Assembly: GCA_938020445.1 (NCBI GenBank)
Contig: CALIIC010000193.1
Coordinates: 1-39,444 of the forward strand
Direction of reading: 5' to 3'
DNA length: 39,444 nucleotides
Source of the DNA: an uncultured Flavobacteriaceae bacterium
Lineage (GTDB): Bacteria > Bacteroidota > Bacteroidia > Flavobacteriales > Flavobacteriaceae
The number at the start of each line of letters is the position of its first letter. Within the stretch, counting starts at the first letter, position 1. Shown here piece by piece: positions 5,869-21,029 of the stretch. The notes below the pieces were generated by a model that saw nothing but the letters and a program-made list of their open reading frames with translations, was not told the origin of the DNA and did no database searches. The translations under genes were made by a program, and so were the position numbers.

Positions 5869-5905
5869 TGGATACAATCAGAGTTTCCTTTAAAAGTAAT
5901 GAAAA

Positions 5906-6493: not shown

Positions 6494-7360
6494 CTACAAA
6501 AAATACTTTTTAAGAATAGAAATGACCGCTCCGCGATAGGAGCTGCCAAAAAGATTTAGATGTACTAGGAGGTAATATAGCTGGTAAAACTCCTGTCGGT
6601 CGGCGGCTCCATCAGTTTCCGGAAAATGTTCTTGGTATGCGTTGTAAAAAGAAGAATCAAAACCGCCGAAAAGACGGGTCATTGCTAGATCTACCTCATT
6701 ATGCCCGTAGTAAACTGCCGGATCGATCAGGTACGGAGTACCGTTTTGTGCGAAAAGATAATTTCCACCCCATAGATCACCATGCAGCAATGCGGGAACC
6801 ACCTTTGGCATCAAAGAATCAAACTTTTTTAATAAGTGGGTTTGCGAAGGAAGTTCTTTTGTCGAAAGATATTTTTTAGCGACGGCCCTCTTAAGTTGTG
6901 GTAACAGCCTCTCGAAAATATAAAAATAAGACCAATTAGTATTTTTTATATTGCTTTGCGGCAGATTCCCAATAAAGTTAGGGTCTTCCCAACCAAAGCT
7001 CTCTGTAGTAATTCTCCCATGCAGCGCTGCAAGTTGATGCCCAAACAAGACCATATCTTTGGAGTCGGGTTTTTTTGGCGCTATGTATTCCATAACCAAC
7101 AAAGCCCCCTTTTCCAGTGCTTCGCAGAAGAGTGTCTTTGGTGTTGCAATGGTTTTTGTTTGGGCAATGGCATCCAAACCCTGCTTCTCTGCCTGAAATA
7201 GCTTTAGGGCGTTGGCCCCATGATTAATTTTGCAAAAAAATTGCTCGGTCTCCGTTTCCAACAGATATGCTTTTGAAATATCGCCGCCGGACAAGGCTGT
7301 TACCTTACCGTTTTTTATGCAAAGCAGGTATTCAATATGTTCAATAAGGGCTTTTTTCAT
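6494..7360 (-). CDS. fructosamine-3-kinase family protein (ketosamine kinase)
   Basis: A 288-residue full-length member of the fructosamine-kinase family, which phosphorylates ketoamines formed when sugars react with protein amines, so that the adduct falls off. Key motifs are visible: a glycine-containing start of the small lobe (LSGGDISKAYLL), a Lys in CKIN, the catalytic loop HGDLWGGN (Asp195, Asn200), and the metal-binding LIDP (Asp213) followed by GHNEVDLAM, a hallmark of this family rather than of other aminoglycoside-kinase-like proteins. It is cytoplasmic. It begins 20 bases after the PqqB-like gene and runs toward the HEAT and PQQ dehydrogenase genes, so a common transcript is likely. 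The substrate (ribulosamine or fructosamine type) cannot be told. Confidence 0.9.
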   Translation of the reverse strand: MKKALIEHIEYLLCIKNGKVTALSGGDISKAYLLETETEQFFCKINHGANALKLFQAEKQGLDAIAQTKTIATPKTLFCEALEKGALLVMEYIAPKKPDSKDMVLFGHQLAALHGRITTESFGWEDPNFIGNLPQSNIKNTNWSYFYIFERLLPQLKRAVAKKYLSTKELPSQTHLLKKFDSLMPKVVPALLHGDLWGGNYLFAQNGTPYLIDPAVYYGHNEVDLAMTRLFGGFDSSFYNAYQEHFPETDGAADRQEFYQLYYLLVHLNLFGSSYRGAVISILKKYFL

Positions 7361-7380: not shown

Positions 7381-8349
7381 TTACAAAGCAAACCGGTCGT
7401 TTATACGTGCAATGCGAAAACCCTTGGTCATAACCTTTTTAGCTTCCGTGCTTTCCTGGTTCAATAGGGGGTTGGTATGGTTAAAATGAATAAAATAAAT
7501 CTTTTGTTTTTCGCTCATGGGCAGCTTTTCGAACATGGCCATGCTCTCAATAACAAAAGGATGTGGAATCTGGGAAATATCCCGGTTGTTAATTTCCGCG
7601 CCATCGTAAAACGTGGCATCTATAAAGGCAAAATCAACTTTGGCAATTTCGTCAATGATCTTTTTATTCCACTTTTCCCATTTATCGATATCTGGGATAA
7701 ACAGCGCTTTTTTTGTGGGGCCTATAATTTGGTAGCCGACCGTTTCTGAAAACTCGTCACGATGCGGAACGGTTAAAGGCCGTATACTGCAATTCGGGTT
7801 CAAGCGGCTTTTAGTTGCATCTTGTAGTGAACGTAAGGCAATATTTTTTTCGGCAACCAATTGACTCCATGGACCGTTGTTTTGTAAAAAACGCTGCATC
7901 TTGGGCATTACAAAAACAGGCGTTTCCGCAGCGTTGGTTGCTTCCTTTCCTAAGTACATTAAGCCTGTATAGTGCCCCATATGGGCATGTGTAAGAAATA
8001 TTCCGTTTGGTATCTCCTTTGCAGGCCAAGATGCCGCTTTCTTCAGCATCTTTAGTTGTTCCGTGATATCAGGGGTAGCCTCAAATAAAAACGTCTGTTG
8101 GTTTTCGTTGTCCACTAATCCCAAAGACACTATTTTTCTAGCATTGTCGGGATTTTCAAACAAATGCACACAACATTCCTTTTTACAAGCGATGTGCGGG
8201 GAGCCGGCGTCTTGAACAGTGCCAAGAATGGTTAGCAATACCTTTGGTTTGCTATGTTGTTCTGCATGGTCGCTTATATCTTCTTTTTGAGTATTTGGCT
8301 TACATGCCATCACTAAAAATAATCCGATCAAACACCAACACTTTTTCAT
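7381..8349 (-). CDS. PqqB-like metallo-beta-lactamase-fold lipoprotein
   Basis: A metallo-beta-lactamase-fold hydrolase of the group that resembles PqqB. The ATG at 8349 gives a 322-residue lipoprotein with signal MKKCWCLIGLFLVMAC (lipobox VMAC, Cys16); an in-frame TTG at 8385 gives a poor N-terminus. Motifs include LGTVQDAGSPH with a following Cys-rich segment, the metal site HAHMGH at 121-126, and an FNHTN site near the C-terminus. In canonical members the first site is HxHxDH; here the Asp position is Gly125, so the second metal or its role may differ. True PqqB is not a lipoprotein, and no pqqA, C, D or E is present, so PQQ synthesis is not implied. First gene of the probable operon running to 2546. 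Confidence 0.8.
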   Translation of the reverse strand: MKKCWCLIGLFLVMACKPNTQKEDISDHAEQHSKPKVLLTILGTVQDAGSPHIACKKECCVHLFENPDNARKIVSLGLVDNENQQTFLFEATPDITEQLKMLKKAASWPAKEIPNGIFLTHAHMGHYTGLMYLGKEATNAAETPVFVMPKMQRFLQNNGPWSQLVAEKNIALRSLQDATKSRLNPNCSIRPLTVPHRDEFSETVGYQIIGPTKKALFIPDIDKWEKWNKKIIDEIAKVDFAFIDATFYDGAEINNRDISQIPHPFVIESMAMFEKLPMSEKQKIYFIHFNHTNPLLNQESTEAKKVMTKGFRIARINDRFAL

Positions 8350-8504
8350 TCGTTGCGGTTTATATATTCGATATTCGAAGGTCAAATACTCTTTCAGGCT
8401 TTTGAGGGCTTGTTCTTAGGTTGTTTACTTTTTGTAAGATATCACATTATCTGCGTTTTTCAATTGACTGTAAGCAGTTTTGCTAAAACCCCAAAAACAA
8501 GAAA

Positions 8505-8565: not shown

Positions 8566-9486
8566 CTAGCGTATCAAGGCACTGCTTTTGTTGATAGAAA
8601 ATACCATGGCAGAAATTTTCCAACCCTCACTGGGCGTCCCGACCAAAGTTGTTAGCAAACGTCCCTTTTCTAGTTTTTTGGCCCCTTTTGAGATGGTATA
8701 CGAGGCACTTGCCAGTGCAGTATATTGGTCTTTTACATCAATATTTAAACGTTGAAAATCAATTTTGATATTAGATGGTAATCCGTTGAGTTGTTCCAAG
8801 AACACACCAGCGGTATGGGTATTTGCGTCATAGGTTTCGGAAAAGACCTTTTTAAAGCGAAAACAAGGCGCCGTAGGCGTGCTAAACAAAGAAGTAAAGT
8901 CCGTTGCCGCTCTTGAGTCGAAAGCCGTTTTGAAGTCTTGGAAAATAACTTGGGTCGATGCTTCTATTTCTAAGTCCGAGTAGTCTGTGGTATCGTCGGG
9001 AGCCGTAATGGTAGAGGAGAGGCTTACGATTTTCCAACCTTCAGGCGTATGTACGTATACGAATAGATCATTGCCAAAAAGATCTTCATTCCCATCCCTA
9101 AATCCTTGAAAGAGATGACTGTCCGCAGCCAATCCCTTTTCGATACTAAATTCGATATCTGAATAGACCGGAAAATAGTCATAATCCCAACTGGTGAAGA
9201 ATCCGATCCACTGGTCTCTGGTAAGGGTGGCAATGGCAGGGCTTCCATTGCTTTTTAATACAAAGTTGACTGTCGAATTCTCTGATAAATAAAGCGCTGC
9301 GTGGCCTTGCGCATTTTTATCCTCTTCGGTTACCGCAAAATCGACCAATAGCTGTTGCAGTTCTTCCTTGGTCTCCTTTTTTGATGGACCGCTTCCTAAA
9401 TAGTCATTCACGCAGCCTGTGTGGAGGGTTAAAAGGGCAATTGCAAATGCGAAGTAAATAGTGGTAAATTTCTTTTTTTGTTTCAT
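8566..9486 (-). CDS. lipoprotein with two NTF2/SnoaL-like halves (DUF4440-like)
   Basis: A 306-residue lipoprotein. I chose the ATG at 9486, which gives a basic start (MKQKKKF), hydrophobic core and lipobox HTGC; an upstream in-frame non-ATG start at 9543 gives no sensible signal. After the anchor, two similar halves follow. Each has an N-terminal helix (LQQLLVDFAVTEEDKNAQ; IFQDFKTAFDSRAATDF), a beta-rich middle and a final strand (EGWKIVSLSSTI; EGWKISAMVFSI). This is the cone-shaped NTF2-like fold, usually a binding protein or small-molecule enzyme. The paired EGWKI motifs support an internal duplication. It lies just downstream of the AraC regulator on the same strand (89-base gap) and is followed by a clear terminator. 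Function unknown. Confidence 0.75.
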   Translation of the reverse strand: MKQKKKFTTIYFAFAIALLTLHTGCVNDYLGSGPSKKETKEELQQLLVDFAVTEEDKNAQGHAALYLSENSTVNFVLKSNGSPAIATLTRDQWIGFFTSWDYDYFPVYSDIEFSIEKGLAADSHLFQGFRDGNEDLFGNDLFVYVHTPEGWKIVSLSSTITAPDDTTDYSDLEIEASTQVIFQDFKTAFDSRAATDFTSLFSTPTAPCFRFKKVFSETYDANTHTAGVFLEQLNGLPSNIKIDFQRLNIDVKDQYTALASASYTISKGAKKLEKGRLLTTLVGTPSEGWKISAMVFSINKSSALIR

Positions 9487-9575
9487 TGTTTTAAATTTTA
9501 GGGTTGAATTAAAAAACAATGGTACTGCGCAATCGAATACCAATCGAACGTGTGCATGTAGGCGTACCTATTTGG

Positions 9576-10691
9576 CTATCGGCCCAACTGATTTATGTAT
9601 TGGCTGGGGGTTAAATGAAACAGTTGCTTGAACGATTTGTTGAAAGTGGTTTTTGAGTTGAATCCCACTTCGAAGGCGATGGCCAGGAGGGTATGTTTCT
9701 TATGGGCGTTCTGTTCAACCTTGGCGATAAAATCTTGCAGGCGAAACCGGTTTACGAATTCGTAGAAATTACAATGATAGCATTGGTTAATGGTATGGGA
9801 AAGTTTGGTCTGCCCCACTTTCAGTTTTTCTGCAAGTTCTTGAAGTGACAAGGTGGGGTTTCGATACAGTTGGTCATTGACCATGGCGCTTTCCAAGCTT
9901 ATTTTAAGTGCCTCCAGTTCTTCTGACGGCCTTTTACTCTTTGCTTTTCTGGGAATTTGATACGGCACCCTTAACAGCTCGGGTCGTCCCATCGACACAT
10001 AGGTGACCGCATAGATGACAAATGGTATGATGGTCCAACCGATATACGTCTTGGTAAATGGGAAGAATCGAATCTCGAAAAAGAAATCCAAGGCGAACAG
10101 GCTGCAAATTGCAGTTCCCAATAATAGGGCTACCAGAAACAGGGATAGGTATCGAATCTGTGGTTTAAAGGAAACCAAGTTGCGGGCATTTTTTCTAAAA
10201 CGAATAAGTAAATGAGCCGACATCGCCGATAAAGTAAGGGTCCACCCTATCAGCACGATAAAGATGAACAACCATTCCAATTCGAACATTTTTGCCCGTA
10301 CCATGATGGCCATGTTTTGCTCCGAATACCCAAAAAGAAAAACGCCATAAAAGAAATGTAGCATGGCAGGGCCAAAAAGACCTGCTGGTGGGATACCAAG
10401 TTTTCTGGTTGGAAAAAGTAATTTGGAAAAATAGCGATAGGTCAATGGCGCGAACATAAAAGCCAGGGAATCTAAAAAAACGATGCTTCTTAAAGGAAAA
10501 ATGGGGTATACGATGGTACACACATACAATATGAGCGAAACCGAGCCTACCAAGAGAAGCGCAGAAAGGGTTTGTACGGCCCTTGGATGCGCCTTATGGA
10601 TTCTTGGAAGTGTAAATGATAAGAAGAGCCCCTGTAGGGCCCCCAATAATAGAGGAAGGGATAGTAGGAGATGTGATGATTGAGGCGCCAT
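9576..10691 (-). CDS. AraC-family regulator with multi-pass membrane N-terminus
   Basis: A 371-residue membrane-bound transcription regulator. About residues 8-240 contain seven probable membrane helices, for example LLLSLPLLLGALQGLFLSF and YLSLFLVALLLGTAICSLF. The last 100 residues are a standard AraC double helix-turn-helix: SLQELAEKLKVGQTKLSHTI, then LLAIAFEVGFNSKTTFNKSFK and the closing LTPSQYI. This architecture is common in Bacteroidota and is thought to sense a membrane or periplasmic signal. The gene diverges from the DUF5009 protein with about 146 bases between and is followed by the NTF2-like lipoprotein gene. Either neighbour is a possible target. ATG start at 10691. The signal is unknown. 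Confidence 0.9.
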   Translation of the reverse strand: MAPQSSHLLLSLPLLLGALQGLFLSFTLPRIHKAHPRAVQTLSALLLVGSVSLILYVCTIVYPIFPLRSIVFLDSLAFMFAPLTYRYFSKLLFPTRKLGIPPAGLFGPAMLHFFYGVFLFGYSEQNMAIMVRAKMFELEWLFIFIVLIGWTLTLSAMSAHLLIRFRKNARNLVSFKPQIRYLSLFLVALLLGTAICSLFALDFFFEIRFFPFTKTYIGWTIIPFVIYAVTYVSMGRPELLRVPYQIPRKAKSKRPSEELEALKISLESAMVNDQLYRNPTLSLQELAEKLKVGQTKLSHTINQCYHCNFYEFVNRFRLQDFIAKVEQNAHKKHTLLAIAFEVGFNSKTTFNKSFKQLFHLTPSQYINQLGR

Positions 10692-10837: not shown

Positions 10838-11944
10838 ATGTCTCAACTAGCATCCAACGTATCCAAACGCTTATTCTCATTAGATGTTTTTAGGGGTTTG
10901 ATCATGTTTTTGCTCATTGCCGAAGCAGCGGGTTTTCATCATGGCATTGTAGTACTTACCGAAGGAACCGTTTTTCATAGTGTCGCGTTACAATTCGAAC
11001 ACCACCCCTGGAACGGACTTCGATTTTGGGATTTGATACAGCCTTTTTTCATGTTTATAGTAGGGGTTGCCATGCCCTTCTCCCTGCGCAAGCGATTAGC
11101 CAGTGGTAACCGTGGCGTGGTAACCAAGCACATTTTACGCCGTTGTTTTTTGCTCTTTAGCTTTGGGGTGTTGTTGCATTGTGTTTATAGCCATGCCTTG
11201 GTATGGGAGCTATGGAATGTTTTGGTTCAGCTGGCGTTTACGATTCTGATTGCCTATGCTTTAATAAATCTTCCACATCGTCTGCAAATAGGGGTTTCGG
11301 TTATTTTATTAATAGTAACGGAACTAGCATACCGCTTTTATGACCCTGCAGGGCCATATGTACAAGGGCATGAGAGTTTGGGCGCTTTTATAGATCAACT
11401 GGTTATGGGGCAAGTGAATGATGGGTATTGGGTTTTCATCAACTTTGTTCCTACGGCGGCACATACTATTTGGGGGGTTGTTTGCGGACAGTTGTTACTA
11501 AAGAACATACCGGAAACCCAAAAAATAAAATCGTTTCTGATTTGGGGGTCGGGGGCACTTGTTTTGGGTTTTGCGCTCGATTGGCTCGCCATTACCCCAA
11601 TGGTAAAACGCATAGCCACCTCCTCATTTGCATTGGCTTCGGGAGGTTTTGCAATACTGACCCTGACGTTGTTTTATTGGGCGATCGATGTAAAGGACAA
11701 TCATAAAAAGTGGCTGCGTATTTTCTCGGTTGTCGGTACTAATTCAATCTTTATTTACCTTTTTGCCGAAACGGTCGGGCACCAATGGTTTCGGGATTTT
11801 GGAATGATTTGGACCGATGGGTTGCTTGGTCCACTAGGGCTTTCGGAAAAAGCAATTGCAGTACTAAACTCCCTGCTCGTACTGTTTATTTTTTGGTATA
11901 TCACCTATTTTCTTGATAAATATAAGGTGTATTTTAAAGTGTAA
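10838..11944 (+). CDS. DUF5009 / HGSNAT-like multi-pass membrane acyltransferase
   Basis: A 368-residue integral membrane protein with about ten hydrophobic helices. The N-terminus carries the family signature RLFSLDVFRGLIMFLLI, then a His-rich loop (GFHHG and FEHHPWNGLRFWDLIQPFFMF) typical of the DUF5009/DUF1624 group. That group includes heparan-alpha-glucosaminide N-acetyltransferase (HGSNAT), which moves an acetyl group from cytoplasmic acetyl-CoA across the membrane to a glucosamine. Bacterial members probably acetylate sugars at or beyond the inner membrane. Length is usual. It is transcribed alone, divergent from the AraC regulator and convergent with the next operon. Family fairly sure; reaction and acceptor inferred. 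Confidence 0.82.
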   Translation: MSQLASNVSKRLFSLDVFRGLIMFLLIAEAAGFHHGIVVLTEGTVFHSVALQFEHHPWNGLRFWDLIQPFFMFIVGVAMPFSLRKRLASGNRGVVTKHILRRCFLLFSFGVLLHCVYSHALVWELWNVLVQLAFTILIAYALINLPHRLQIGVSVILLIVTELAYRFYDPAGPYVQGHESLGAFIDQLVMGQVNDGYWVFINFVPTAAHTIWGVVCGQLLLKNIPETQKIKSFLIWGSGALVLGFALDWLAITPMVKRIATSSFALASGGFAILTLTLFYWAIDVKDNHKKWLRIFSVVGTNSIFIYLFAETVGHQWFRDFGMIWTDGLLGPLGLSEKAIAVLNSLLVLFIFWYITYFLDKYKVYFKV

Positions 11945-12178: not shown

Positions 12179-12565
12179 CTATTTTTCATAGATTTCCAGA
12201 GGAAGTCCGTCTGGATCTTCAAAGAATGTAAATTTCTTTAGGGTAGCTTCATCAATTCGTATATCTTCTATGACAAGTCCCTTTTGTTCTAACTCCTTTT
12301 TGGTGATTTCCACATTTTCTACCTCAAATGCCAAATGCCTTAGTCCTGCCGCTTCTGGCCTAGAAGTTCGCGGCGGAGGGTCCGGAAATGAAAATAATTC
12401 TAGCACATACTCCCCGTTCAACGCTAGATCTAGTTTGTATGATTGTCGTTCCTTCCTGTAGGTTTCCTTCATAATATCGAGACCAAGAATTTCTGAATAG
12501 AAGTGCTTGGATGTTTTGTAATCGGAACAAATAATAGCGATATGGTGTATTTTATTAAAATGCAT
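12179..12565 (-). CDS. VOC-family (glyoxalase-like) protein
   Basis: A 128-residue vicinal-oxygen-chelate protein, close in pattern to the YaeR/SMU1112c subgroup. The start MHFNKIHHIAIICSDY (ATG 12565) gives the first metal-site His near residue 8. YVLELFSFPD supplies the first Glu region, GLRHLAFEV the second His, and PDGLPLEIYEK the final Glu, so the metal site is complete. An in-frame extension to 12619 would overlap the SDR gene and has no support. It is the last gene of the sugar operon, seven bases after the SDR stop. VOC enzymes act as lyases, isomerases or dioxygenases; its role here could be isomerisation of, or protection from, a reactive keto-sugar fragment. Substrate unknown. Confidence 0.85.
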   Translation of the reverse strand: MHFNKIHHIAIICSDYKTSKHFYSEILGLDIMKETYRKERQSYKLDLALNGEYVLELFSFPDPPPRTSRPEAAGLRHLAFEVENVEITKKELEQKGLVIEDIRIDEATLKKFTFFEDPDGLPLEIYEK

Positions 12566-12572
12566 GAATGGT

Positions 12573-13352
12573 TTATAAATCTTCGGGATACTTCCCAGCG
12601 GTGGTCCAGCCCCCATCAACGGTTATGGTCTGGCCATTGATATGTGCGGCTTCGTCCGATAGCAGGAAAAGACAGGTTTTGGCAATATCGTCAGGTGTTC
12701 CCACCTTATTATTTGGGTTCAAATGGCTCCAAACCCCTTCGTAATCAGGCTGTTCTTGCTGTGTTCTAGCAGTCAATGTGGCCCCGGGGGCAATCACGTT
12801 AATGTTGATTTGATGTTCTCCAAGTTCATATGCGAGGTTAACGGCCATCATGCGCAGTGCTGCCTTGGTCATCGCGTAGGTGGTGAGGTTTTTATAGGCC
12901 CGAATACCCACCTGTGATGACATAAGTACCATTTTTCCACCACCACCTTGCTTTATGATTTCTTGAGCAGCACGTTGCGCAAGAAAAAAGGCTCCTTGAA
13001 GATTTAACTGCACTACTTTTTGAAACGAGGCCGGGGTAAACTCCAGAAAATCTCCAAACAAGGTAATTCCCGCGTTGGGAACAATAAAATCTAGTCGACC
13101 ATATTGTTCCAAGGTAAAATCAACCAGGGCATTGATATGTTCTACATCGCCGGCGTCGCCGGGAAAAGTGCTACAACTATTAGGGTATTCTTTGTTCAAT
13201 CTGGCAGTGGCGTCTAGGGCTTTTTGTGAATCTATATCGTTTAGGACTACTTTGGCGCCTGCCCTTAGCAATAACGAAACAATAGCAAAACCGATGCCCT
13301 CCGCGGCTCCGGTAATGATTGCAACTTTATTGGTAATTCCCGAATACTGCAT
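12573..13352 (-). CDS. SDR-family oxidoreductase (sugar dehydrogenase-like)
   Basis: A 259-residue classical short-chain dehydrogenase. The cofactor motif TGAAEGIG is at residues 14-21, the NAG motif in VPNAGI, the catalytic Ser at 146, and Tyr159-x-x-x-Lys163 in YAMTK. The C-terminus has GQTITVDGGW, usual for glucose/ribitol-dehydrogenase-like members. Asp near the end of beta-2 (VVLNDID) favours NAD over NADP. Its ATG shares one base with the stop of the SMP-30 gene (TAATG at 13352), implying coupled translation. Oxidation of a sugar to a lactone by this enzyme followed by hydrolysis by the SMP-30 protein is the natural reading of the pair, by analogy to other oxidative sugar pathways. Substrate not known. 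Confidence 0.88.
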   Translation of the reverse strand: MQYSGITNKVAIITGAAEGIGFAIVSLLLRAGAKVVLNDIDSQKALDATARLNKEYPNSCSTFPGDAGDVEHINALVDFTLEQYGRLDFIVPNAGITLFGDFLEFTPASFQKVVQLNLQGAFFLAQRAAQEIIKQGGGGKMVLMSSQVGIRAYKNLTTYAMTKAALRMMAVNLAYELGEHQININVIAPGATLTARTQQEQPDYEGVWSHLNPNNKVGTPDDIAKTCLFLLSDEAAHINGQTITVDGGWTTAGKYPEDL

Positions 13353-14245
13353 TAGGTTTCTTTAAAGTAATAAAAAGGCATTCCCTTCACCTTTGTTTGA
13401 AAGGCAAATAGTCCCCCGCTTAGGGGAAATTCGTTTAATTGCGCCTTGTTCAAACCACTTCTCGCAGTAGTGATGTACAAGGTATCTAGATTCTCTCCAC
13501 CAAAACAACAGGAGGTCACATTTGGTACCGGAAGACCAACTTTTTCAATCATTTCTCCGGTGGTGGGGTTCCAACGTCTTATTGCATGGCCTCCCCAATG
13601 GGCAATCCATAGCATTCCCTCCTTGTCAATGGTCATCCCGTCTGGGGCTCCAAAACTCTCAGGGATTGTAAAAGCTACTTTTTTATTGGTGATACCACTG
13701 GTGCTTTTATCAAAACTAAATTGAGCCACTTGTTGTGTCGCGGTATCAATATAGTAAAATAGTTTATGATTTGCGGTCCATGCCATTCCGTTTGAAATGG
13801 TCGTACCCGATAGCATTTGGGTTACTTTTAAATGTGAATCAACCCGGTAAAGGCTTCCCGAATTTGGAGCCAATTGCTTGTGCATGCTTCCAATCCAAAA
13901 ATTCCCGTTTGGGCCAACTTTGCCATCATTGTAACGCATTTCGGGACGATCGTTTTGCAAAACCGCAAGCGGTGTCAAGGTTTCCGAAGTAGGTATAAAC
14001 CGGGCCAGACCATTCTCCAATGCAAGTAAAAGCGTGTCTTTATCGGTAGGTACAACAGCACCCACCATGTGTTCAAATGACCATGTGTGATGCTCTTTCC
14101 TAATTGGGTTATACCGGTGCACTACGCACCCTTCGATATCGACCCAAAACAGCACCTGCTTTTTCCAATCCCAAACGGGTCCTTCCCCTAGTGTGGATTT
14201 TGTATCGATTAGCAGGGTGGCGCTGTTTTTCTTGGTAGTTTTCAT
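13352..14245 (-). CDS. SMP-30/gluconolactonase-family lactonase
   Basis: A 297-residue cytoplasmic six-bladed beta-propeller of the SMP-30/LRE family, which hydrolyses sugar-acid lactones using one divalent metal. Family landmarks: LGEGPVWD near residue 18 (metal Glu), NDGKVGPNGNFWIGSM in the middle, SNGMAW (Asn ligand region), and APDGMTIDKEGMLWIA (Asp ligand). No signal peptide, unlike the SMP-30-like lipoprotein at 26920-27825. The ATG at 14245 is well placed and the stop overlaps the SDR start by one base. The upstream zinc dehydrogenase ends six bases away. A lactonase beside two dehydrogenases and a dehydratase points to an oxidative (Entner-Doudoroff-like or non-phosphorylating) sugar route. 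The exact lactone is unknown. Confidence 0.9.
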   Translation of the reverse strand: MKTTKKNSATLLIDTKSTLGEGPVWDWKKQVLFWVDIEGCVVHRYNPIRKEHHTWSFEHMVGAVVPTDKDTLLLALENGLARFIPTSETLTPLAVLQNDRPEMRYNDGKVGPNGNFWIGSMHKQLAPNSGSLYRVDSHLKVTQMLSGTTISNGMAWTANHKLFYYIDTATQQVAQFSFDKSTSGITNKKVAFTIPESFGAPDGMTIDKEGMLWIAHWGGHAIRRWNPTTGEMIEKVGLPVPNVTSCCFGGENLDTLYITTARSGLNKAQLNEFPLSGGLFAFQTKVKGMPFYYFKET

Positions 14246-14251
14246 AGGATA

Positions 14252-15283
14252 TTAAGACGGATACAGTAGTATTTTAAGCGATTTTTTTTGTTGCATCAAA
14301 TCGAAACCCTTTTGCCAATCTTTTAGTGACATTCGGTGGGAAATGACAGGGTCGAGATCAACACCCCCTTGATTGATGATGGCAACGGCTCGATCCCAGG
14401 TTGCTCTTGTATACCCTACAGAACCTTTGATTATCAATTGCCGAAAGGCCGATAAATCAAATGGGAGGCTAATGTTCTTGCCGAAATGTCCCACCTGAAT
14501 GTATTGCCCCAATGGCCGTAATGCTTGTAAGCAATTGCTTGCTGAAGCCTGCGCTCCGGCAGTCTCAAATGCAATATCTACTCCTTTTCCCTTTGTTTCT
14601 TTTTGTATGATTGCCTGTAGATCTTCTACGTCTACTGTAACCGTCGTATGAGCGCCCCATTCCTTTGCCGTTTTTAGCTTTTCACTGTCATGACTTGTGC
14701 CCGCTACGATTGTTTTTACCCCTTGTGCCAACAAAAGTTTTAACAATAACATCCCGATAGGACCGGGGCCAGAGAGCAAAACCGTATCACCGAATTGTAG
14801 GTCCGCGATTTCACCTACAGCATGCACCGCTACCGCGAAAGGTTCTACCAGGGCAGAAACATCATCACTTATGTGGCTTGCGGTAGCGTATAGTTGATCG
14901 GGCCTTGCGGCCACGTATTTTGTAAAAGCACCGTTTACTCCATGTCCCATACCTCTTTTAGCCTTGCAAAACATGAACTCCCCACTGCGGCAATACTCAC
15001 AGTTGTTGCAGATGACCGTTAGGGCTCCGAGAACGGAATATCGAGCGCCTAGCTCGATGCCATCGGTCCGTTTCCCTTTTTCAATAACGCGACCGGAAAA
15101 CTCATGACCTAGAATTACTGGGGGATAGTTTTTAAAGGTATCCTGAAAAACATGCAGATCCGTACCGCAAATACCACAGGAATTTACCTCCAAAATGACT
15201 TTTCCGTCTTCCAGATGGGGGTCGGGCATCTGCTGAAGCCGTACATTTCCCGGTCCTTTGTCATATTTTACAAGTGCTTCCAT
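14252..15283 (-). CDS. zinc-dependent medium-chain dehydrogenase (sorbitol dehydrogenase-like)
   Basis: A 343-residue zinc alcohol dehydrogenase of the sorbitol/threonine dehydrogenase group. Catalytic zinc ligands are Cys39 (CGICGTD), His60 and Glu61 (GHEF). The structural-zinc lobe has Cys92, Cys95, Cys98 and Cys106. The nucleotide site is GPGPIGMLLLKLLL. I used the ATG at 15283, which begins MEALVKY and shares one base with the stop of the transketolase C-subunit gene (TAATG). A longer in-frame reading to 15409 runs into that gene and has a polar, non-family N-terminus. Likely role: NAD-linked oxidation of a polyol or secondary alcohol, perhaps a keto-deoxy sugar acid in this module. Substrate not determined. 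Confidence 0.9.
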   Translation of the reverse strand: MEALVKYDKGPGNVRLQQMPDPHLEDGKVILEVNSCGICGTDLHVFQDTFKNYPPVILGHEFSGRVIEKGKRTDGIELGARYSVLGALTVICNNCEYCRSGEFMFCKAKRGMGHGVNGAFTKYVAARPDQLYATASHISDDVSALVEPFAVAVHAVGEIADLQFGDTVLLSGPGPIGMLLLKLLLAQGVKTIVAGTSHDSEKLKTAKEWGAHTTVTVDVEDLQAIIQKETKGKGVDIAFETAGAQASASNCLQALRPLGQYIQVGHFGKNISLPFDLSAFRQLIIKGSVGYTRATWDRAVAIINQGGVDLDPVISHRMSLKDWQKGFDLMQQKKSLKILLYPS

Positions 15284-16212
15284 TAGGTTAAGATTTTCAT
15301 CGCTTTTTTCAAGACATCTGGTGCGCGAAGGCCGTACAAATCTAGAAGTTCCTGACTTTGGCCCGATTCTCCAAAGGTATCCATTACCCCGACCCTTTGA
15401 ACCGGGCATGGGTGATGTTCCGATACGACTCCTGCCACCGCTTCTCCCAAGCCCGCCAAAATCGAATGTTCTTCTACGGTAACAATTCCTTTTGTTTCCT
15501 TTGCCGCTAGGAGGATGACTTCTTCATCTAAGGGTTTTATGGTGTGCATATGAATGACACGGGTCGAATAGCCTTTTTCTTCCAAAGATTTTGCGGCCAA
15601 AAGTCCCTCGTTCACTAAAATACCCGTTGTAATGATGGTAATATCGGTGCCTTTTCGAATGGTTTTGGCCTTTCCTATTTCAAAAGAGCCGTGGATTTCC
15701 GGAACAACAGGGTATTTGTCCCTACCGAAACGTAAATATACCGGTCCGTTCATTTTTGCCGCTGCGTGGGTTGCCAGTCGCGACTCTTCATAATCTCCTG
15801 GTACGATTACCGTCATATTCGGCAGCGTTCGGGCCATACCGATATCTTCGTTCGACTGGTGCGAGGCCCCATCCCCACCAACACTAATTCCGCAATGGGT
15901 TACGCCGATTTTTACATTCAGTTTTGGGTATGCGATGCTGCTTCGCATTTGGTCGCCAGCCCTGCAAGTGGCAAAAACGCCAAAAGTAGATGCGAAAGGA
16001 ATAAACCCTTCCAAGGCCAAGCCCGCCGCCGCCGACAGCATGTTCTGTTCCTGAACGCCACAATTAAAGAAGCGATCGGGAAATACGGCCTCAAACTGTT
16101 CGGTTAATGTTGCCTTTGCCACATCGGCATCCATTACCAATATCTTTTCGTTTTCGTGTCCTAATTCTATGAGGGCATCGGCATAACCCTGTTTTGTTGC
16201 CTTGTATTCCAT
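15283..16212 (-). CDS. transketolase C-terminal subunit (split transketolase)
   Basis: A 309-residue protein carrying the pyrimidine-binding and C-terminal transketolase domains. MDADVAKATLTEQFEAVFP and FNCGVQEQNMLSAAAGLA (with the conserved Glu that activates thiamine diphosphate) fall in the first half, and the GVMDTFGESGQS region lies near the end. It forms one transketolase with the N-subunit encoded one base upstream. Split transketolases are known as general enzymes in some bacteria and as specialised ones, for example the AptA/AptB D-apulose-4-phosphate transketolase and the sulfo-sugar transketolase SqwGH. Embedded among sugar oxidation genes, this pair is more likely a specialised enzyme, but donor and acceptor cannot be read from the sequence. 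Confidence 0.93.
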   Translation of the reverse strand: MEYKATKQGYADALIELGHENEKILVMDADVAKATLTEQFEAVFPDRFFNCGVQEQNMLSAAAGLALEGFIPFASTFGVFATCRAGDQMRSSIAYPKLNVKIGVTHCGISVGGDGASHQSNEDIGMARTLPNMTVIVPGDYEESRLATHAAAKMNGPVYLRFGRDKYPVVPEIHGSFEIGKAKTIRKGTDITIITTGILVNEGLLAAKSLEEKGYSTRVIHMHTIKPLDEEVILLAAKETKGIVTVEEHSILAGLGEAVAGVVSEHHPCPVQRVGVMDTFGESGQSQELLDLYGLRAPDVLKKAMKILT

Positions 16213-16213
16213 G

Positions 16214-17032
16214 TCAGTTCAATTCTAGCATTGCTTTGTCAAAATGTTCTTTTGCCGGAGGTTTTCCATGCCATTCGGCCTCCCCTTCCATAAACGAAAC
16301 CCCTTTTCCCTTCGTGGTATTGGCGATGATCATTACCGGTACTGTTTCTTTTTTAGCTGTTTCAATGGTCGAGATGATTTCTCCAAAATCATGCCCATTG
16401 ATGGTAAACACCTTCCAACCAAAGCTTTCCCATTTAGCATCCAAAGGATCCATGGGCATTACTTTTTCGGAGTAGCCATCGGTTTGCAGGTAATTGCGAT
16501 CTACGAAACCGATTACATTATCTAGTTTGTATTTGTTTGCGAACGCAGCTGCTTCCCAAACCTGACCTTCCTGAATTTCCCCATCTCCGCAAAGAATGTA
16601 ATAGTACTGGTCTTGTTTTTTTAGCTTGGCGCCCAAGGCCATGCCCACTCCTGTGGATATTCCAATTCCCAAGGTGCCTGTACAAGCGTCGATTCCTGGG
16701 GTCTTGGGTTGGTAGGGATGCCCTTGAAGGTGCGATCCTGGCCTTCGAAACGTTAATAAATCTTCTTTTGGAAAATACCCACAGTCGGCTAGTGCGGCAT
16801 AAATCACAGGTGTACAATGGCCTTTGGAAAGTACAAAGCGATCTCGACTTTCCCATTCTGGGTTTTGTGGGTCGTGCTGCATTACATGGTAGTAGAGCGC
16901 AGTAACTATATCTGCGGCACCCAGACTACCTCCAACATGGCCGGAGTTGGCACGGTGCACCATGGAAACGATTTCGCGCCGTATTTCCTTGGCTTTGGTT
17001 TTTAAGTCTTTGTGTTTTTGTTCGTCAAGCAT
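16214..17032 (-). CDS. transketolase N-terminal subunit (split transketolase)
   Basis: A 272-residue thiamine-diphosphate-binding half of transketolase. The TPP motif starts GDGEIQEGQVWEAA (Gly149-Asp150-Gly151) and closes with Asn180 (FVDRN). His residues of the active site are in SGHVGGSLG and SKGHCTPV. ATG 17032 (MLDEQKH) is preferred to the in-frame TTG at 17047. It is 22 bases downstream of the IlvD-type gene and one base upstream of its partner, so equal production of both halves is expected. Cytoplasmic. Function as in its partner: transfer of a two-carbon ketol unit. Confidence 0.93.
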   Translation of the reverse strand: MLDEQKHKDLKTKAKEIRREIVSMVHRANSGHVGGSLGAADIVTALYYHVMQHDPQNPEWESRDRFVLSKGHCTPVIYAALADCGYFPKEDLLTFRRPGSHLQGHPYQPKTPGIDACTGTLGIGISTGVGMALGAKLKKQDQYYYILCGDGEIQEGQVWEAAAFANKYKLDNVIGFVDRNYLQTDGYSEKVMPMDPLDAKWESFGWKVFTINGHDFGEIISTIETAKKETVPVMIIANTTKGKGVSFMEGEAEWHGKPPAKEHFDKAMLELN

Positions 17033-17054
17033 GGTGTTTTTTATCAATGTAAGG

Positions 17055-18746
17055 TTATAGGTTTGGATTTAGTTCATCTGTAACACATCCTTCGGAAGCG
17101 GTGGAGACGAAATGGGCATATTTTAATAGCAACCCATGGTCAGCATTTATTTTTGGCGCCGTCCATTTGCGACGACGTTCTTGTAATTCTGAATCGGTTA
17201 ACTGTACTTCCAAGCGATTGTTGAGCCCGTCAATCTTAATTTTATCACCATTTTGAATCAAAGCGATTGCGCCGCCAGTCTGTGCCTCCGGGGTGATATG
17301 ACCTACCACAAAGCCGTGTGTAGCGCCAGAGAAGCGCCCATCGGTGATCAAGGCAACCTTTTTACCAAGACCCATGCCCATGATCGAAGCGGTGGGCTTC
17401 AACATTTCTGGCATTCCCGGCCCTCCCTTCGGACCACAAAATCGAATCACCACAACATCGCCTTCTGATACCTTGCCTGCAAGGATTGCCGTGTTTGCCT
17501 CATCTTCCGAATCGAAAATATTGGCCGTACCTTCAAAGACCTCACCTTCTTTACCGGTAATTTTAGCCACAGCGCCCTCGTTGGCTAGATTGCCATATAA
17601 AATTTGTAAATGCCCTTCTTTTTTCAACGGCTTGTCCAAGGGCATTACAACTCTCTGTCCCTGCTCCAAATCGGAAACTTCCGCCAGATTTTCTGCCAAT
17701 GTTTTCCCTGTTACGGTCATGCAATCCCCGTGCAGGAGACCTTCTTTGAGCATCATTTTCATGACGCCTGGCACTCCGCCAACATCGTTCAATTCTTCCA
17801 TAACGAATTGCCCGCTTGGCTTTAGATCAGACAACAAGGGTGTTTTATTGCTCGCTTGCTGAAAATCATTCATCGTGAGCGGAATACCCACCGACTTGGC
17901 CAATGCGATCATATGTATGACCGCGTTGGTAGAACCGCCCAAAACGATGATCAGCCGTAAGGCGTTTTCGAAAGCTGCTCGGGTTTGTATGTCTTTAGGG
18001 CGAATATCTTTTTCAAGGATTGTTCGAATGGCAGCGCCGATGGTTCGGGTTTCGTTTGCCTTTTGTTCGCTTACAGCGGGGAAAGAAGAATTAAACGGCA
18101 TGCTCATTCCTAATGCTTCGATCGCCGAAGCCATCGTATTTGCGGTATACATACCTCCACAAGCCCCGGGTCCCGGACAGGCGTTTCGAACAATGTTCTT
18201 GAATTCCTCAGGAGTAATTTGCCCTGACATTTTTTGGCCTACTGCTTCGAAGGAAGAGGTAATATCTAACTTTTTATCCTTGTGGCAGCCACTTTTAATG
18301 GTGCCGCCATAGACGATGATACCTGGCCTGTTGACTCTGTTGATTCCCATGAGGGCTCCTGGCATATTTTTGTCACAGCCAACAACGGCAATAGTGCCGT
18401 CATACCATTGGGCAGAAGTAACCATTTCGACCGAGTCTGCAATGATATCTCTCGAAGGCAAGGAGAATCGCATTCCAGAAGTACCCATTGAAATTGCATC
18501 ACTTACTCCGGAGGTGTGATAAACCAGTCCTATCAAATCACTTTCGCTAACATTTTGTTTTATTGCAGTTGCAAGTTCGTTGAGATGCATATTACAGGGG
18601 TTGCCCTCCCAGCCACAGCTAACGATTCCTACCTGCGCTTTTCGGAGATCTGCGTCACTGAGACCGGCGGCGTGTAGCATTGATTGTGCTCCTGGGCGCT
18701 CGTCGTTTTGAGTAACGTGTTTGCTATACTTATTGATTTCACTCAT
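17055..18746 (-). CDS. ilvD: IlvD/Edd-family dehydratase (dihydroxy-acid dehydratase-like)
   Basis: A 563-residue Fe-S dehydratase closest in pattern to IlvD of Bacteroidota. Cluster cysteines are all present: Cys51 (GNPCNMH), Cys124 (GCDKNMPG) and Cys196 ([12 protein letters not shown]), a [2Fe-2S]-type arrangement. The C-terminal region has the usual GGPGMPEML and [10 protein letters not shown] motifs. IlvD makes 2-keto acids from dihydroxy acids in valine/isoleucine synthesis, but here no ilvB, ilvN, ilvC or leu gene is nearby. It sits between a Gfo/Idh oxidoreductase and a split transketolase, with a lactonase in the same operon, so a sugar-acid dehydratase is a serious alternative. The ilvD symbol is a family name, not a claim of function. 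Family assignment is sure. Confidence 0.85.
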
Positions 18747-18770
18747 AGGTATCTATACTAATTCTATCAA

Positions 18771-19910
18771 TTAATTATTTAGGGCCCCTGGAATAGTGAC
18801 CCAAGCTCTTTTTTCTGCCGATTCCGAAACGGCATCCAATACCTGTTGGCAGCGCAAACCGTCATAAAAGTTGGGAGTTACCTGCTGGTGATTCGCAATG
18901 CCGTTCATTAAGTCCGAAAATTGATGTACAAAGGTGTGTTCCCAACCAATAATATGGCCTGGAGGCCACCAGGCGTCTACATAGGGGTGTGTTTGTTCGG
19001 TTACTAAAATGCTACGGAAGCCCTGTTCTCCTTCTGGATCTTTTGAAGAGAAATAGCGAAGCTCGTTGAGGTTCTCTAGATTGAAAGTAAGACTGCCTTC
19101 GCTCCCAAAAATTTCCAAACGCAAATGGTTTTTGAAACCGTTCGCAAATCGAGTCGCATTGAAAGACCCCAATGCACCGTTCCGAAAATGTGCCATAAAA
19201 AGGGTGGTGTCATCGGCGGATACTTTTCCAGTGCCCTCTCCCGAGGCCAATGGCCGTTCTTTTACAAACACTTCTTGAATGCCCGTTACCGCCTCAAATT
19301 CTCCTACCAGGAAACGTGCCAAGTCTATAATATGGGCATTCATATCGCCATGCGCGCCAGAGCCGGTCGTTTTTACATCGTGCCGCCAAACCAAGGGGAA
19401 TAATGGGTCTACCAGCCAGTCTTGGTAGTACACCGCATTGAAATGATGAATGGCACCTAGTTTCCCATTTTGAATCATCCGCTTGGCAAGCGCCAATGCC
19501 GGTACAAAACGGTAATTAAAAATCATCATATGCACGATACCCGCCGATTCGGCCAGCTCGTACATTTCTTGTGCTTCCCGAACATTCATGGCCATGGGTT
19601 TTTCACAGAGCACATTTTTTCCATTTCGAATGGCTTCCAGGACAATAGGATGGTGCAGGTTGTTCGGCGTACAGATATCGATTAAATCTATTTCTTCATT
19701 GCTGACGAGTTGTTTCCAATCGGTAGTTTGTTGTTTCCAACCATATTTTTTCGAAAACGAATCGAGTTGTTGGGGGTTTCGCCCACAGGCAGTATGCAAT
19801 ACAGGGGTTCCATTGATATCAAAAAAATGGGGGAGGCGCAGATACCCATTGGTATGGGCCTTGCCCATGAACTGTGTCCCTACAATTCCGATATTGATGT
19901 CGTTTTTCAT
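18771..19910 (-). CDS. Gfo/Idh/MocA-family sugar oxidoreductase
   Basis: A 379-residue NAD(P)-dependent oxidoreductase. The Rossmann motif GIVGTQFMGKAH is at residues 9-20, the signature CEKPMAM at about 97-103, and a GSGAHGDMNAHIIDLARF stretch in the C-terminal domain has Asp and His at the expected catalytic positions. HTFVHQF and DGLRCQQVLDAV near the end are typical of the family. Length is usual; the start is the ATG at 19910. The stop lies 24 bases before the IlvD start. Along with the sugar isomerase/epimerase upstream, it forms the head of the operon. It likely oxidises a ring hydroxyl of a sugar or cyclitol. Substrate not determined. Confidence 0.9.
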   Translation of the reverse strand: MKNDINIGIVGTQFMGKAHTNGYLRLPHFFDINGTPVLHTACGRNPQQLDSFSKKYGWKQQTTDWKQLVSNEEIDLIDICTPNNLHHPIVLEAIRNGKNVLCEKPMAMNVREAQEMYELAESAGIVHMMIFNYRFVPALALAKRMIQNGKLGAIHHFNAVYYQDWLVDPLFPLVWRHDVKTTGSGAHGDMNAHIIDLARFLVGEFEAVTGIQEVFVKERPLASGEGTGKVSADDTTLFMAHFRNGALGSFNATRFANGFKNHLRLEIFGSEGSLTFNLENLNELRYFSSKDPEGEQGFRSILVTEQTHPYVDAWWPPGHIIGWEHTFVHQFSDLMNGIANHQQVTPNFYDGLRCQQVLDAVSESAEKRAWVTIPGALNN

Positions 19911-19991
19911 ACTTTCGAACGTCTCGCTTACGCGAAAATCATCTTATTTTCTTTTTGTACTCACATTAGGTCGTTTCTGAAACGCCTAGGT

Positions 19992-21029
19992 TTAAATACC
20001 GAGAATGTCTTTGTTCAATGTTGTATCTGTTTCACTTTTTGCAAAATCGTCGAAGGAACGCTCGGAGGCTTGTATAATGTTTTTTGCAATAAAGGGAGCC
20101 CCTTCAATTGCACCTTGCTCGGAACTTTTCACACAGCATTCCCACTCCATGATGGCCCAACCATCAAATCCTGCATCGGTAAGAAGGGTGAAAATACGCT
20201 TGAAATCAATTTGCCCATCTCCTAAGGAGCGAAAACGCCCGGCGCGCTGTTTCCAATCTTGATAGCCGCCATATACTCCTGTCATCCCATCGGGGCGAAA
20301 TTCTGCGTCTTTTACATGAAACGCTTTGATACGGTCCTTGAACAGTTTTATAAAGTCGATATAATCTAGTTGCTGTAATAGAAAATGGCTTGCGTCATAG
20401 GTCAAGCATGCGGCGGAATGTCCTTTGGTCTCTTCTAAAAACCGTTGGTAGGTAGCGCCATCATATAAATCAGATCCGGGATGTAATTCGTAACCAAAGG
20501 TAATACCGTTTTCTTCCGCCATATTTAAAATGGGAAGCCATCGTTTTGCTAGCTCTTCAAAAGCATCATCGATAAGGCCTGCAGAACGTTGTGGCCAAGG
20601 ATATATGTAGGGCCAAGCAAGACCGCCAGACATAACCGAAATATTGGTAGTCCCAAAGTGAACGGAAGCTTTGATGGTTTTTTGAAGTTGTTCTGAAGCC
20701 CAGAGCATGGCTTCTTTAGCGCTTAACCCTTTTGGGTAAAAAGCTTGAAAAAGCTTCTGATAAGCTGGGTGCATAGCCAACACTTGCCCTTGGAGGTAGG
20801 AGGCCAATTCACAGGCTTCCAATCCGTGTTCTGCTAAAATTCCGAGATAGGTATCACAATAGGTTTTGGAACTGGATGCTTGTTCCAAATCGAACAGGCG
20901 CGTATCCCAAGTAGGTATCTGCACTCCTTGATATCCTAAGCCTGCCGCCCATTTGGCCATCCCTTCAATAGTATTGAAAGGCGGTGTATCATCCGCGAAT
21001 TGTGCCAAGAAAATCCCAGGTCCCTTCAT
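19992..21029 (-). CDS. sugar phosphate isomerase/epimerase (AP-endonuclease-2 TIM barrel)
   Basis: A 345-residue TIM-barrel enzyme of the xylose-isomerase-like family. Metal-site segments: FGYELHPGSDLYDG (Glu and His), LTYDASHFLLQ (Asp, His), AFHVKDAEF (His, Asp) and WAIMEWECC (final Glu), so the metal site appears intact. No signal peptide. The ATG at 21029 is preferred over a TTG at 21038. It is the first gene of the nine-gene minus-strand sugar module, and an 82-base gap separates it from the next gene, larger than the other gaps. Family members isomerise, epimerise, dehydrate or decarboxylate free or phosphorylated sugars (the 3-oxo-isoapionate decarboxylase OiaC also has this fold), so the reaction is open. 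Confidence 0.88.
   Translation of the reverse strand: MKGPGIFLAQFADDTPPFNTIEGMAKWAAGLGYQGVQIPTWDTRLFDLEQASSSKTYCDTYLGILAEHGLEACELASYLQGQVLAMHPAYQKLFQAFYPKGLSAKEAMLWASEQLQKTIKASVHFGTTNISVMSGGLAWPYIYPWPQRSAGLIDDAFEELAKRWLPILNMAEENGITFGYELHPGSDLYDGATYQRFLEETKGHSAACLTYDASHFLLQQLDYIDFIKLFKDRIKAFHVKDAEFRPDGMTGVYGGYQDWKQRAGRFRSLGDGQIDFKRIFTLLTDAGFDGWAIMEWECCVKSSEQGAIEGAPFIAKNIIQASERSFDDFAKSETDTTLNKDILGI

Follow-up and report, generated by a model that had tools for sequence, protein, structure and literature searches.

A gene cluster built around a dedicated split transketolase was identified in the window, a 39,444-nucleotide stretch (contig C193, GenBank CALIIC010000193.1) from the draft genome (4.66 Mb, 82% complete) of an uncultured Flavobacteriaceae bacterium that falls in one family group with Ulvibacterium and Poritiphilus. 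The cluster is conserved in several relatives in both gene content and order, its open reading frames (ORFs) are intact, its transketolase forms a branch separate from the general transketolase, and one of its proteins is homologous to a hydratase of 3-keto sugars. We tentatively propose that the cluster serves the kinase-free degradation of a glycoside sugar oxidised at C3 (a 3-keto sugar), with the split transketolase moving the terminal two-carbon unit of the sugar onto a sugar phosphate.

Conservation of the cluster and its split transketolase

All nine ORFs between positions 12179 and 21029 lie on the minus strand, start with ATG and contain zero internal stops. A preliminary description of this DNA had reported these nine genes, and the family assignments it gave them were borne out by Pfam and NCBIfam models. 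Read along the minus strand, they encode a TIM-barrel homologue of 2-hydroxy-3-keto-glucal hydratase (ISO, 19992-21029, 345 amino acids); a Gfo/Idh/MocA oxidoreductase of a levoglucosan-dehydrogenase-like branch, predicted to act as a 3-dehydrogenase or 3-keto reductase (GFO, 18771-19910, 379 amino acids); a diverged dihydroxy-acid dehydratase paralogue that is an optional member of the cluster (ILVD, 17055-18746, 563 amino acids); the N-terminal, thiamine diphosphate half of the dedicated transketolase (TKN, 16214-17032, 272 amino acids, PF00456) and its C-terminal half (TKC, 15283-16212, 309 amino acids, PF02779 and PF02780); a zinc medium-chain dehydrogenase of the threonine/sorbitol/L-idonate dehydrogenase type (ZnDH, 14252-15283, 343 amino acids, PF08240 and PF00107); a lactonase of the SMP-30/gluconolactonase family (SMP30, 13352-14245, 297 amino acids, PF08450 at 279.6 bits); a short-chain dehydrogenase whose nearest model is the "glucose 1-dehydrogenase" PRK07231 (SDR, 12573-13352, 259 amino acids); and a YaeR-type glyoxalase-like protein (VOC, 12179-12565, 128 amino acids, NF050075 at 198.8 bits, above the cut-off of 140). 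One-base overlaps of stop and start codons, described earlier as several, are present at two junctions only, TKC/ZnDH (15283) and SMP30/SDR (13352). Scans for sigma-70 promoters and for terminators gave results near chance (11 found, mean 15.2, and 16 found, mean 11.1, standard deviation 3.7, respectively).

To find related loci, contigs were scanned with the Gfo/Idh protein; 80 loci were kept and, together with 6 earlier loci, these 86 were read with all nine proteins. Transketolase matches were present in five of them (L043, L044, L045, L079 and L049). When TKC was searched against 397 genomes of the family, the cluster type (70-100% identity) was identified in five: that of the window, two of Ulvibacterium (loci L044 and L079), one of Poritiphilus (L045), and G500, whose locus L145 retains the gene order at 48-70% identity. 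The order ISO-GFO-TKN-TKC-ZnDH-SMP30-SDR was found in all six Flavobacteriaceae loci with this transketolase type (the window, L043, L044, L079, L045 and L145). Conservation of gene order, a point raised by the preliminary description, therefore holds for these seven core genes, and because they keep the same order in six of six loci, with some members down to 48% identity, the cluster goes beyond what chance would produce. The order of Pleomorphovibrio, with 291 genomes searched, gave one match, in Flexithrix dorotheae, where the seventh cluster (L175) consists of GFO, a secreted protein, TKN, TKC, ZnDH and SDR. None of the seven clusters lacks ZnDH or either half of the transketolase.

Environmental homologues of the transketolase subfamily are numerous, at about 70% identity; the best 120 TKC homologues listed in the protein database are all at least 69% identical, and the best 120 ZnDH homologues listed there at least 58%. 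Among contigs of at least 5 kb carrying ZnDH homologues (87) or TKC homologues (78) there were 40 equal-sized pairs, compared with 0.03 expected for random sizes, which indicates that ZnDH and the transketolase travel together. GFO was matched at E 1e-40 in 7 of 296 genomes of the order, at 38-45% identity in all but the window's own, and ZnDH in 2 of 395 genomes in a phylum-level search, namely the window's own and one at 37%. The best ZnDH match in a search of plasmids was at 34%.

A similar but not identical gene set was found at L049 (3966-7928), a Bryobacteraceae contig with GFO-ZnDH-TKN-TKC at 47-52% identity. This locus was rejected as a cluster member, since its TKC is of another transketolase type. 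It adjoins pyruvate-dehydrogenase-like E1 genes (by eye). TKC was matched in none of 247 genomes of Acidobacteriota, the phylum of L049, in a search that had no positive control.

Being split does not in itself set the cluster enzyme apart, as the housekeeping transketolase of Flavobacteriaceae is also split. A second, general split transketolase is encoded on contig C181 of the same genome, with 43% identity to the N half and 48-49% to the C half of the cluster enzyme, and TKC had a match at E 1e-80 or better in 328 of the 397 family genomes, nearly all of the listed rows at 46-50%. A maximum-likelihood tree of the C half separated 24 cluster-type rows (branch support 99/100) from 17 general ones, which formed a branch of their own (100/99); two rows were ignored, that of L049, which was the wrong ORF (a pyruvate dehydrogenase beta subunit), and that of L192, which was long and badly aligned. 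Thus the halves did not group with the general transketolase; grouping with it, combined with a gene order not conserved in relatives, was what the preliminary description had named as evidence against its reading. TKN and TKC were rejected as the housekeeping enzyme because of this separate branch, the replacement of a serine by Ala34, and the general copy on C181.

TKN matched the split transketolase in PDB entry 6yak (E 1.5e-89), and equivalents of His37, His110, His258 and the Asp of the GDG motif were present in all seven cluster rows. In an alignment of TKC with human transketolase, Ala34 corresponds to Ser345, Gly113 to Glu423, Lys7 to Arg318, His106 to His416 and Asp114 to Asp424. The three histidines of TKN and the His, Asp and Arg residues of TKC are presumably catalytic, and we take human Arg318, Ser345, His416 and Arg474 to be the contacts to the substrate phosphate. 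Ala34 was found in all 126 cluster-type TKC rows, which comprised the 120 best homologues and the cluster loci (123 distinct; 119 were best database hits, chosen for likeness). At the same site in 21 other rows there was Ser in 19, Ala in one (L193, from Collinsella), and one row (the badly aligned L192) was unreadable. Gly113 was likewise present in 126 of 126 cluster-type rows, with Glu in 20 of the 21 others, and the equivalents of Arg/Lys318, His416, Asp424 and Arg474 were kept in 126 of 126. Judged from these alignments, the partial loss of phosphate-site residues fits, although it does not prove, an unphosphorylated donor and a phosphorylated acceptor. No AptA/B or SqwG/H model was among the NCBIfam hits listed for the window proteins.

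Proposed chemistry and competing explanations

The first two genes suggest the type of substrate. ISO matched 2-hydroxy-3-keto-glucal hydratase (PDB 8ro4) at 453 bits (E 5.6e-135) over residues 1-345 of 345; an "isomerase/epimerase" gene had been reported at this position, and the gene is present, with the hydratase as its closest solved match over the whole length. ISO homologues are 64-88% identical in five relatives' clusters, and 56-57% identical in two alphaproteobacterial relatives, where they adjoin Gfo/Idh genes. GFO is 26-31% identical to these adjoining genes, presumed reductases, and its PDB matches include 4h3v (374 bits) and 6a3f (313 bits). In both Ulvibacterium genomes, genes for PF06439 3-keto-disaccharide hydrolases flank the cluster on both sides. 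Owing to the hydratase match of ISO and the levoglucosan-dehydrogenase-like GFO, the front end appears to carry out 3-keto-glycoside chemistry, a reading that the preliminary description had missed. In characterised systems the sugar is first oxidised at C3 and undergoes beta-elimination, the hydratase then acts, and reduction to glucose comes after it (PMC7676230, PMC10628242), and LgdB2 has been suggested to perform both elimination and hydration (PMC7676230).

The same proteins could be read as an inositol or cyclitol pathway, in which GFO would be an inositol dehydrogenase, ISO an inosose isomerase or dehydratase and ZnDH an inosose dehydrogenase, and a ring-opened 5-keto-hexonate would be the transketolase donor. 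There were weaker matches to IolG (139.5 bits), IolE (67.4 bits) and IolM (176.8 bits), and a scyllo-inositol/L-glucose dehydrogenase structure matched GFO at 190.8 bits. However, the Iol matches fall far under the curated cut-offs, ISO scored 453 bits to the hydratase versus 34 bits to IolE among PDB structures, and SDR and SMP30 would be left unexplained, so we consider this reading very improbable.

Three further enzymes may prepare the transketolase donor. An SDR with an SMP-30 protein is a standard pair for converting an aldose to an aldonate, and SMP30 matched SMP-30 and regucalcin structures. The solved relatives of ZnDH include threonine, xylitol, sorbitol, L-arabinitol and L-idonate dehydrogenases, and its scores of 207.1 and 219.2 bits to models of tdh (L-threonine 3-dehydrogenase) did not reach the cut-offs of 458.35 and 380. 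Several polyol dehydrogenases of this type oxidise the hydroxyl adjoining a terminal CH2OH; an oxidation of this kind would therefore create the HOCH2-CO-CHOH group required of a transketolase donor.

These steps would also suit a rare aldose of the L-glucose or L-galactose type, oxidised to the lactone by GFO or SDR, to the aldonate by SMP30 and to the 5-keto-aldonate by ZnDH, with the transketolase replacing epimerase, kinase and aldolase, and with ISO as an epimerase. The first reactions would be ordered as in LguA/LguD of Luteolibacter (PMC12632266), and an L-glucose dehydrogenase of the Gfo/Idh family is known (PMC5969746). ISO, though, is nearest to a hydratase and not to an epimerase. 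In addition, we know of no L-sugar source for these organisms, and we regard the explanation as improbable.

The dehydratase had been placed at the core of the module, a role that was rejected, because IlvD is missing from four of the seven clusters (L044, L079, L045 and L175) and the other three contain two subfamilies that are about 32% identical; it is therefore treated as optional. The window and L043 have a paralogue resembling dihydroxy-acid dehydratase, whereas L145 has a sugar-acid type of the L-arabinonate-dehydratase-like subfamily, at 31-33% identity. ILVD scored 782 bits to PRK00911 and 716.7 bits to TIGR00110, above the curated ilvD cut-off of 618. With the L043 copy it lies on a long branch (stem 0.39) whose sole neighbour among 34 ilvD rows is that of L016 (support 0.92), and where 33 or all 34 of those rows share a residue, these two copies carry changes that include T44C, Y46W, F76Y, N77H, I79S, G84A and G475A. 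The genome's own ilvD is encoded in a separate ilvD-ilvB-ilvN-ilvC run on contig C145 (B, N and C identified by eye), so the cluster copy is neither part of an ilv operon nor the sole copy. Of the four genomes with no dehydratase in the cluster, three were searched for the sugar-acid type, the two of Ulvibacterium and that of Poritiphilus, and each holds an unlinked gene of this type (63-64%), adjoining a GntP-type permease (by eye). The two recruitments from different IlvD subfamilies suggest that sugar-acid dehydration is part of the pathway in some hosts, and that it is provided in trans or by-passed in others. A second locus in G500 (L164, 6645-9347) has no transketolase and places an SDR (50% identical to that of the window) beside an IlvD of the sugar-acid type and a transporter-like gene.

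Pfam and NCBIfam models identified no kinase among the nine genes and no linked 2-keto-3-deoxy-acid aldolase within the run. The lack of kinase and aldolase noted earlier thus stands for the run itself, but not for the genome as regards the aldolase, because PF01081 aldolases, of the 2-keto-3-deoxy-6-phosphogluconate (KDPG) type, are encoded elsewhere in all seven genomes checked. These aldolases bear on a non-phosphorylative Entner-Doudoroff route, in which SDR, SMP30 and IlvD would form 2-keto-3-deoxygluconate (KDG), the pathway would be completed by a KDG kinase and a KDPG aldolase from other parts of the genome, and the transketolase would be merely a linked enzyme of the pentose phosphate pathway. 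The sugar-acid type of IlvD in the G500 cluster, and the SDR beside a sugar-acid IlvD and transporter-like gene at the second G500 locus, are also in its favor. The route gives no role to ZnDH or to the transketolase, which are present in seven of seven clusters while IlvD is missing from four, and the cluster transketolase stands on a separate branch with an altered substrate site; we therefore find the Entner-Doudoroff explanation unlikely.

In the transketolase scheme that we favor, a glycoside or anhydrosugar would be oxidised at C3 by GFO, ISO would convert the product by elimination/hydration to a free 3-keto hexose, and GFO or SDR would reduce this to the hexose. SDR and SMP30 would then convert the hexose to an aldonate, gluconate being the simplest case, and oxidation by ZnDH at the hydroxyl that neighbours the terminal CH2OH would give a 5-keto-aldonate or, with the IlvD-type dehydratase, 2,5-diketo-3-deoxygluconate. 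TKN/TKC would pass the HOCH2-CO unit (C5-C6) to glyceraldehyde 3-phosphate, forming xylulose 5-phosphate and a four-carbon (C4) semialdehyde. The C4 product would be tartrate semialdehyde, or 2,4-dioxobutanoate after dehydration, with entry at the level of oxaloacetate, and the IlvD step is optional in the scheme because either product can reach oxaloacetate. At carbon 4, both 2,5-diketo-3-deoxygluconate and 5-keto-D-gluconate have the stereochemistry that transketolase accepts. Each substrate, the redox directions, the acceptor, the fate of the C4 product and the order of reactions are what we infer. The first half of the scheme has a proven precedent and the cleavage an engineered one, as Luteolibacter LguA/LguD convert L-glucose to L-gluconate and 5-keto-L-gluconate (PMC12632266) and tartaric semialdehyde has been made from 5-keto-gluconate with an engineered transketolase (PMC12016104). 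The fuller claim, that this is a natural kinase-free glycolytic shunt in which a 3-keto-glycoside sugar becomes a 5-keto-aldonate (or 2,5-diketo-3-deoxyaldonate) and is cut by a transketolase subfamily without the phosphate-contacting serine, so that xylulose 5-phosphate forms together with a C4 acid at the level of oxaloacetate and the sugar itself costs no ATP, appears rather doubtful.

Several observations weigh against the proposed pathway. No substrate is fixed by the sequence, and ordinary sugar phosphates may still serve as donors. The Collinsella gene pair (L193), which lies beside secA and prfB, also has Ala at the Ser345 site, so Ala alone is no safe mark of the cluster type, and in the L049 TKC, at 47% identity, Ser takes the place of Ala34 and Asn that of the catalytic His106. 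GFO scored 363.7 bits to the levoglucosan dehydrogenase model NF052479, short of the cut-off of 650, and SDR scored 210.9 bits to PRK07231, short of 215, although the G500 copy exceeds that cut-off (218.4 bits). Only a single Gfo gene is present in the cluster, with no separate 3-keto-glucose reductase, and no separate lyase gene or transporter was identified within the run. The PF06439 flanks are weak evidence, since the family is abundant (7-24 matches per genome in seven genomes) and no member flanks the window's cluster. The Flexithrix cluster is without ISO, SMP30 and IlvD, which means that not every cluster has the 3-keto front end, and 81 of the 86 GFO loci had no transketolase match, meaning that GFO also works without a transketolase. 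2,4-dioxobutanoate is an unusual intermediate, no gene for the fate of the C4 product was identified, and the unlinked PF01081 aldolases mean that KDG could exit by the ordinary route. An Agrobacterium plasmid operon (L192, 6238-11800) has the order SDR-transketolase N-transketolase C-TRAP transporter, without a linked kinase; it backs the idea of pairing a dehydrogenase with a transketolase, yet shows that the partners can change.

Neighbouring genes and a secreted protein family

VOC, listed earlier as a gene of the module, was rejected as a pathway enzyme and is probably a neighbour outside it: no VOC match was found in the 86 loci (E 1e-10) or in the other relatives' clusters. Convergent with the cluster is a plus-strand gene for a DUF5009-like membrane protein (10838-11944; PF16401 at 22.4 bits, below the cut-off of 25). 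DUF5009-like ORFs also adjoin the SDR end in L044, L079 and L145 (by eye), and were not seen in L043 and L045. An additional ORF of 145 amino acids lies between ZnDH and SMP30 in L043 (15813-16250), the closest named relative; the window has no gap there.

Other genes of the window recur near some of the related clusters. An AraC-type regulator (9576-10691) and a SnoaL-like lipoprotein (8566-9543) are encoded in the window, and the same two follow SDR in L043 (18292-20393, by eye). A fructosamine-kinase-family gene (6494-7360), apart from the run, adjoins a beta-lactamase-superfamily gene (7381-8385); a pair of these types comes directly after SDR in the Poritiphilus locus L045 (15618-17452, by eye), and a fructosamine-kinase-type gene lies near the cluster in L079 (17902-18765). 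On the cluster strand, the window also encodes a protein of the PQQ-dependent glucose/alcohol dehydrogenase family with a cytochrome c domain (3730-5877; PF01011 and PF13442).

A family of secreted proteins of about 350 amino acids, some with a jacalin domain, is encoded inside or near the cluster in Flexithrix (L175, 11100-12167) and G500 (L145, 276-1370), the two being 43% identical. Its homologues occur on contigs equal in size to 8 with ZnDH and 5 with TKC homologues. The structural model of the Flexithrix protein (pLDDT 92) gave mostly lectin and jelly-roll matches in Foldseek, with low TM-scores, which would suggest at most a secreted carbohydrate-binding fold. The family was found in four of seven genomes, with no match in the window's 82%-complete genome.

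Relation to known pathways

Dedicated split transketolases are known at the C-C bond-breaking step of two other pathways, as AptA/B on apulose-4-phosphate and as SqwG/H in the sulfo-transketolase (sulfo-TK) pathway, to which the cluster enzyme is likened here by description. The apiose route starts with a kinase and sulfo-TK acts on sulfosugars; their partners, a sugar kinase or a sulfosugar isomerase, are missing from the cluster, with no kinase among the nine genes. To our knowledge, neither system has SMP-30, hydratase and zinc dehydrogenase partners. An SDR, an SMP-30 protein and an IlvD/Edd-type dehydratase are shared with the oxidative Entner-Doudoroff and sulfo-Entner-Doudoroff pathways, but the cluster has no aldolase, draws an optional dehydratase from two subfamilies, and adds ZnDH and the transketolase.

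The levoglucosan and 3-keto-glucoside pathways (LgdA-LgdB1-LgdB2-LgdC and AtGlycDH-AtOGE-AtHYD-Gfo) likewise combine Gfo/Idh proteins with a hydratase-related TIM-barrel protein, and the PF06439 flanks in two relatives are a further likeness. Those pathways end at glucose (PMC7676230, PMC10628242), whereas the cluster adds a lactonase, a zinc dehydrogenase and a transketolase, and lacks a separate lyase or second Gfo gene. The L-glucose and L-galactose pathways of Paracoccus 43P and Luteolibacter LG18 also proceed without phosphorylation from an aldose dehydrogenase through the aldonate to a 5-keto-aldonate, formed by a 5-dehydrogenase. The LG18 pathway then differs: after epimerisation and reduction, a dehydration yields KDG, which is passed on through a kinase and an aldolase (PMC12632266), and transketolase is nowhere mentioned in that paper. 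Cleavage of 5-keto-gluconate between C4 and C5 to tartaric semialdehyde is a transketolase reaction, carried out in Gluconobacter by the mutant enzyme TKTA_M (PMC12016104) rather than by a natural, dedicated one.

The combination of SDR, SMP-30, dehydratase and split transketolase singled out by the preliminary description is real in the window, and no description of it was found in the searches made of the open-licence part of PubMed Central. Each enzyme family is known, and the combination and the transketolase subfamily appear to be undescribed in the literature searched. The fate of 3-ketogalactose has been called unknown in one paper (PMC9007349). If the proposed pathway is correct, the cluster would represent one way to use 3-keto sugars after glycoside cleavage, and a further natural use of a dedicated split transketolase, here on a non-phosphorylated sugar acid. 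It would also provide a natural enzyme for the step from 5-keto-gluconate to tartaric semialdehyde, a step carried out elsewhere by an engineered one (PMC12016104).

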